From: Elusimicrobiaceae bacterium
GTDB lineage: Bacteria > Elusimicrobiota > Elusimicrobia > Elusimicrobiales > Elusimicrobiaceae
NCBI GenBank assembly: GCA_017546175.1
Contig: JAFYXM010000007.1
Span: 1 to 64,000, forward strand
Length of the DNA: 64,000 bases
Direction of reading: 5' to 3'
In this document: positions 21,416 through 22,098 of the stretch, in pieces
Layout of the letters: each line of letters opens with the position of its first letter
Position numbering within the stretch: position 1 is the stretch's first letter
Program-made: the position numbers and the translations under genes
Notes under the pieces: model-generated
The model's database searches: none
What the model saw: the letters and a program-made list of their open reading frames with translations, nothing else
Told to the model about the DNA's origin: nothing

Positions 21416-21451
21416 ACACCGCATGAGCCTTTAGGTTTATGCGGTGTTTTT
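21416..21451 (+). terminator. Rho-independent terminator after dnaJ
   Basis: ACACCGCAT / ATGCGGTGT stem (21416-21424, 21439-21447), extended inside by AGCCT/AGGTT pairing, then a T5 tract. Confidence 0.85.
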
Positions 21452-21486: not shown

Positions 21487-21514
21487 TTGACACGTTTTTT
21501 TTTTTTGGTACAAT
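21487..21514 (+). promoter_or_regulatory. Pilin promoter with a T12 homopolymer in the spacer
   Basis: A perfect -35 TTGACA (21487-21492) and -10 TACAAT (21509-21514) are separated by 16 bp made of CG, twelve T and GG. Slippage in the T tract would change the -35/-10 spacing by single bases, so promoter strength could switch. Confidence 0.75.
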
Positions 21515-21554
21515 TTTTGCGTAGTAAAAATTGGACCAAAAAGGAGTCTTATGT

Positions 21555-22073
21555 ATGAAAACATCATTTAGACGTAATATTAACGGCTTTACATTGATTG
21601 AACTATTAGTTGTTGTGCTGATTATCGGCATTTTATCTGCGGTGGCTTTACCGCAATATACCATGGCGGTGGAAAAAGCACGTGCTACGGAAGCTTTGAC
21701 TAATATTGCCACTATTAAGCAACAAATAGAGCTATATATGTTAGAAAATGAGTTACCTCAGTCATCTTCAGTTTCTTATAGAGACTTTGCCACTGTAGAA
21801 CTTTCCGGAGCCCAGTGGACTAGCGCGACTTTTTGTGAGACGGAAAACGTGGATTATAGTATATTTGTTGGCGACGGTTATGCAGATATAGAAGCAACTC
21901 TAAAACGAAGTGGAGTAACTTTTTACAGTGACACAAGACCTAATTCTACTTACAACGCAGACAACCCTATAGGAATTTGGTATAACTCATGCGTCACGCA
22001 AGGAAGCGATCTTGGAAAGCTTTGTAAACAATATGAAAATATGGGTTGGAAATATGTAGAAGGAGATCTATAA
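21555..22073 (+). CDS. Type IV pilin-like protein (type IVa prepilin)
   Basis: 172 residues. A short basic leader ([11 protein letters not shown]) is cleaved before Phe by prepilin peptidase. The mature N-terminus [20 protein letters not shown] has the conserved Glu5 and a hydrophobic helix. The rest is a small globular head with four Cys, ending [19 protein letters not shown]. The start at 21555 is chosen because AAGGAG lies 8 bases upstream and the leader length fits; an in-frame ATG at 21531 overlaps the transcription start region. Could be a pilus subunit or a competence/secretion pseudopilin. It is monocistronic, with its own strong promoter and terminator. Confidence 0.9.
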
Positions 22074-22098
22074 AAACCCCCGCGAAAGCGGGGGTTTT
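22073..22098. terminator. Bidirectional terminator
   Basis: AAAACCCCCGC / GCGGGGGTTTT with a GAAA tetraloop, between the convergent pilin and lepA genes. Confidence 0.92.

Follow-up and report, generated by a model that had tools for sequence, protein, structure and literature searches.

The locus examined here raises the question of what a run of twelve thymines is doing between the -35 and -10 elements of a pilin promoter. The tract lies in a 64-kb stretch of DNA from an Elusimicrobiaceae gut genome (hereafter the window), and a preliminary description proposed it as a candidate phase-variation switch in which slippage at the tract alters promoter spacing. Comparisons within the genome, across the family, and with other bacteria were used to ask whether the tract is a solitary switch, one member of a larger set of length-variable promoters, or an element of fixed length.

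The pilin promoter between dnaJ and lepA

All elements of the promoter lie on the forward strand and were read directly from the sequence. The -35 hexamer TTGACA (21487..21492) matches the consensus at 6 of 6 positions and is followed by a 16-bp spacer (21493-21508) composed of CG (21493-21494), the T12 homopolymer (21495..21506), and GG (21507-21508). Next comes the -10 hexamer TACAAT (21509-21514), which belongs to an extended -10 element, TGG-TACAAT (21506..21514), with TG placed one base ahead of the hexamer. With 11 of 12 hexamer positions matched in total, both the promoter and the CG-T12-GG spacer of the preliminary description were borne out. An AGGAG ribosome-binding site (21542..21546, forward strand) is found 8 nt ahead of the in-frame ATG of a type IV prepilin-like gene of 172 aa (21555..22073, forward strand). 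Its earlier designation as a surface pilin also held up: the product is a prepilin by PF07963 (E=1.2e-8) and by TIGR02532 (above cut-off), it carries the GFTLIE cleavage/methylation motif and a hydrophobic helix at its N-terminus, and this N-terminus resembles those of solved pilins. The gene is set apart by two terminator-like hairpins on the forward strand, one 3' of dnaJ (21416..21447), standing between dnaJ and the pilin gene, and a GC-rich one 3' of the pilin gene (22073..22098), beyond which lies lepA on the opposite strand. In the relative G022, dnaJ adjoins lepA with one similar terminator between them and no pilin, indicating that the pilin gene was either gained here or lost in G022.

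Two other functions for the element were considered and rejected. A sigma-54 promoter (TGGCAC-N5-TTGCW, with fixed GG/GC spacing) does not fit, as TTGACA contains no GG, the TTGC-like part would have to lie about 6 bp closer, and the tract length is not constant. Transcriptional slippage or frameshifting at T12 was likewise discarded because the tract is 5' of the predicted transcription start and thus not transcribed.

A poly-T spacer is a genome-wide trait of pilin genes

The genome (1.34 Mb in 10 contigs) contains 75 PF07963 prepilin matches. There are also four matches to PilB/PilT/GspE-type ATPases, making the presence of a pilus or secretion machine plausible. When all pilin upstream regions were read, 43 of the 75 genes were found to have a promoter of the form TTGAN, 1-6 nt, a run of T's (Tn), and then a TA-type -10-like hexamer; we refer to this arrangement as the cassette. 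The poly-T spacer is a genome-wide trait of pilin genes rather than a single switch, and what the preliminary description overlooked is that the window promoter belongs to a group of about 43. Tract lengths, which were taken from metagenome-assembled genomes (MAGs) and may be in error by one T, ranged from 6 to 14 with a mode of 12, and the majority of promoters shared this one length: 6 (1 promoter), 7 (3), 8 (1), 9 (1), 10 (2), 11 (1), 12 (25), 13 (7), and 14 (2). Promoters with two flank bases, like that in the window, have a 16-bp spacer at T12, a subset whose flanks resemble TTGACA-AATCG reaches 19 bp at T12 (12 copies), and four copies have a 15-bp spacer, again with T12 as the mode. The more general pattern TTGACA-N12-24-TAYAAT occurs at 31 places in the genome, and those with a long poly-T spacer sit directly 5' of a pilin. 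Cassette pilins are also dispersed: 42 of 43 have no other pilin within 1.5 kb, versus 21 of the 32 pilins lacking a cassette.

Long T-runs are otherwise rare in this genome. Within the window, T12 is the sole T- or A-run longer than 9. Over 754 kb of the genome, counts of T-runs on one strand fall from 2318 at length 5 to 6 at length 9, and then rise to 12 at length 12. When both strands are considered, 29 of the 30 T-runs of at least 10 in the same 754 kb are within pilin upstream regions, and the remaining one resembles a terminator tail. Because of this second peak at length 12, and because 29 of 30 long runs fall 5' of pilins, where the 200-bp upstream stretches make up only about 1.7% of the sequence, the clustering of T-runs at pilin promoters is not due to chance. 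The pilin tracts have two features of phase-variable promoters of the simple-sequence-repeat type, namely a repeat beyond the genome background and a promoter position in which the repeat can alter the -35/-10 spacing.

Distribution of the cassette and conservation of spacing

Pilins were detected in all 90 Elusimicrobiaceae genomes, mostly by the dozens per genome. The pattern TTGAC-N1-6-T10, whose minus-strand counts are inflated by nested matches, was found in 68 of the 90, belonging to two of the six genera, and a reversed-pattern control gave zero or near zero matches in most genomes. The control, T10-N1-6-CAGTT, had several matches in G027, G033, G058, and G029 only. When 341 genomes from across the phylum were examined, one strict form of the pattern was confined to these two genera. 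In a scan of one genome per species (84,980 species), most of the matches listed came from Elusimicrobiaceae gut MAGs, with roe deer, yak, reindeer, horse, and others as hosts, and a pilin was located 3' of nearly all testable loci among them; the listed matches in other phyla were ahead of unrelated ORFs. No T12 cassette was present among 30 matches to a looser T7 pattern in viral contigs. In the literature searched, neither phase variation nor the promoters of pilin genes had been the subject of a study in Elusimicrobiota.

Comparison of lineages revealed that tract length tracks flank length, with the spacer being 16 bp in most of them. The commonest arrangement is 2 nt, T12, and 2 nt in G007, G008, G014, G042, G050, and G062. 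In G004 it is 3 nt, T11, and 2 nt (10 of 10 promoters), and in G085, which belongs to another genus, the commonest form (2 of 4) is T15 with no nucleotide before it and 1 nt after it. All of these total 16 bp. Such compensation is expected if total spacing is under selection. The 19-bp subclass and the four 15-bp copies in the genome studied here are off this rule, indicating that spacing is not the whole story.

Tract length in three ortholog pairs

A small sample of three ortholog pairs from sister species, all from MAG assemblies, could be compared, and two of them differ in tract length. In the first (G041/G062) the tract is T12 in one species and T9 in the other, in an alignment of 1206 bases that contains 42 substitutions and 2 gap runs; across the ~380 bp displayed on either side of and including the promoter, no indel other than the tract is seen. 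The second pair has T11 versus T13, with similar upstream and 5' gene regions and diverged downstream sequence. In the third, T12 is found in both members; their upstream flanks have diverged while the promoter and 5' gene region are conserved. Within the single genome G062, tracts range from 8 to 14. Taken together with the strong T12 mode, these sequence comparisons fit tracts that are mutable and held near a preferred length.

Loss of mismatch repair was rejected as a cause of the variation, since mutS1 scored above the cut-off in 86 of the 90 family genomes, this one included. The gene is intact here, and slippage should be lower as a result. In two relatives mutS is split into frames that do not join (G026:C5, with one TGA, and G064:C2, in three pieces), which may reflect either broken mismatch repair or assembly errors.

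Alternative explanations for the conserved tract

The most serious alternative is a fixed architecture, in which the T tract serves to co-regulate the pilin genes through its structure or as a regulatory site, either as rigid A-tract DNA or as a target for a dedicated regulator or sigma factor. Its length would be under stabilizing selection, and the observed variants would represent drift or decay rather than switches. The intact mutS and the persistence of T12 as the mode at 15-, 16-, and 19-bp spacers in this genome are in its favor, as is the prevalence of T12 in sets whose pattern required at least 11 T's: it is found in 24 of 26 paralogs with diverged flanks in G026, and G019 has it in 21 of 24. 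Interrupted tracts, moreover, are rare among the matches listed, and several of them retain a total of 12. Against a fixed length, however, two of the three ortholog pairs differ by 2-3 T's, the spread of lengths is wide both in G062 and in this genome, and lineages with different flank lengths have correspondingly different tract lengths. The stable alternative would be a spacer of mixed A/T, yet pure T is kept even though such runs are avoided in the rest of the genome. On balance we regard a fixed architecture as unlikely, though it deserves to be taken seriously.

A second possibility is that the tract has no role and is simply a by-product of copying, with the promoter core having been spread by recent pilin duplication and T12 being the founder state. 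The coding sequences lend this some credence, as the N-terminal part is conserved among cassette pilins: in the 33 that are comparable, the 35 N-terminal residues have a median identity of 83%, which falls to about 18% beyond residue 55. The missing pilin at the G022 site likewise indicates that pilin genes move or are lost. Nevertheless, the tract is retained by copies in one genome even where identity in the flanks beside the core is mostly below 70-85%, and lineages differ in their flanks and -10 elements but have the same spacing, making a mere by-product of copying quite improbable. Finally, although the assemblies are MAGs and contigs frequently end at cassettes, an assembly or sequencing artefact of the repeat is scarcely credible and is effectively refuted as to the presence of the tract (exact lengths being good to plus or minus one), given that dozens of genomes assembled independently of one another have the same element at the same place in the promoter and that the reversed-pattern control is near zero in most of them.

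A proposed set of independently variable pilin promoters

The reading we favor, and consider more likely than not, is that throughout the family the tracts allow each pilin promoter to vary independently of the others, with spacing set by slippage. The phase variation first suggested for the window promoter is plausible, and the case for it is made stronger by the comparative evidence, because the tract is kept family-wide yet avoided elsewhere in the genome, the 16-bp spacer recurs across most lineages, and orthologs differ in length. The window T12 is one copy of a promoter design common to the dispersed, single-gene type IV pilins of Elusimicrobiaceae. In this model the design is that of a sigma-70-type promoter whose -10 is extended and whose -35/-10 distance is fixed by the homopolymer. 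Slipped-strand mispairing is the presumed mechanism by which T's would be added to or removed from the spacer. Sigma-70 promoters are generally active with spacers of 16-18 bp, weak at 15 and 19 bp, and nearly off at 14 bp or less. The window promoter is thus predicted to be active with T12 (16 bp) and optimal with one more T (17 bp); one T less (15 bp) would leave it weak, and shortening by at least two T's, to 14 bp or below, should turn it off. Put in terms of the tract, T12-T14 should keep the promoter on, and T11 or fewer T's should leave it reduced or off. The extended -10 may soften the sensitivity of output to spacing. Since every pilin gene would vary its output independently, a population could come to include many pilin combinations. 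Slippage itself, an effect of tract length on transcription, reversibility of the length changes, and any benefit to the cell are inferred.

In its fullest form the model would amount to a combinatorial pilin phasome, conserved in two gut Elusimicrobiaceae genera, in which slippage would tune a separate poly-T spacer at every one of dozens of unlinked type IV pilin genes and so give each cell its own mixture of pilins. This extension is put forward tentatively, at slightly less than even odds. If the tracts do switch, the number of surface genes under homopolymer control would be unusually large for one genome. The system would belong to a gut phylum that is poorly cultured and would be built on type IV pilins instead of one or a few fimbriae. 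Switching would also help explain why small genomes (mostly 1.1-1.8 Mb) have dozens to over 100 pilin genes.

Relationship to known homopolymer promoters

Several precedents exist for variable tracts of this kind. Neisseria porA and opc have spacer tracts in their promoters, the Vlp lipoprotein genes of Mycoplasma hyorhinis have a poly-A promoter tract, and the Fim fimbriae of Bordetella are of the chaperone-usher type as opposed to the type IV pilins found here. The closest likeness is to fim2, fim3, and fimX of Bordetella pertussis, where a gene for a fimbrial subunit likewise has a homopolymer in its promoter (PMC1891110, PMC10172299). At fim3 the -35/-10 distance sets promoter strength, loss of one C from the poly-C run abolishes expression, and several tract lengths are encountered within one culture (PMC10172299). 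The fim system differs in comprising few loci, in its use of poly-C, and in requiring the activator BvgA, and switching has been demonstrated there while here it is a candidate from sequence; the Elusimicrobiaceae promoters would operate on a larger, dispersed scale. Like them, the Vlp genes form a surface-protein family in which each member varies independently through its own A/T homopolymer beside the -10, and their expression is combinatorial according to work cited in PMC11868660. The Vlp genes, in contrast, are few and linked and encode mycoplasma lipoproteins, as against dozens of unlinked pilin genes here, where the tracts lie between clear -35 and -10 boxes. Neisseria porA, opc, and nspA share with the pilin promoters a homopolymer that changes transcription of a surface protein, but they are single genes. 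The nspA promoter lacks a -35 consensus and its poly-A tract varies only from 5 to 6 A's, leading the authors to exclude an effect of spacing (PMC6389960). Compared with known homopolymer spacer promoters, those described here are distinguished by a tract of T's, by having type IV pilins as targets, by how many dispersed loci are involved, and by their conservation in two genera.

Variant loci

A few loci depart from the general pattern. In the genome studied here, a TTGAC...T9 element on the minus strand of L072 (contig C8, around 14719) precedes an ORF of about 430 aa that has many cysteines and begins with a signal-peptide-like sequence; its N-terminus is not that of a pilin. The T12 cassette at L144:70-97 (Reindeer_2_mag_101) is followed by a long ORF resembling lactate/malate dehydrogenase, with no pilin motif in between. 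Outside the family, the MAG RUG14215 (labelled Ruminococcus; L127, L128, and L175) has three TTGACG-T11/12/13-GATACAAT promoters before unrelated, non-pilin ORFs, and these may represent a poly-T spacer system of their own. In relatives, many contigs stop in or near a pilin cassette, as in G006:C96 (L300), G058:C1 and C9 (L363, L365), and G002:C40 (L372); the promoter core and the conserved 5' part of the pilin gene act together as an assembly-breaking repeat. At L129, L139, and similar loci of relatives, hairpin-like repeats (GTCATTGCGGGCGTGGACCCGCAATC) are located between the promoter and the pilin start.
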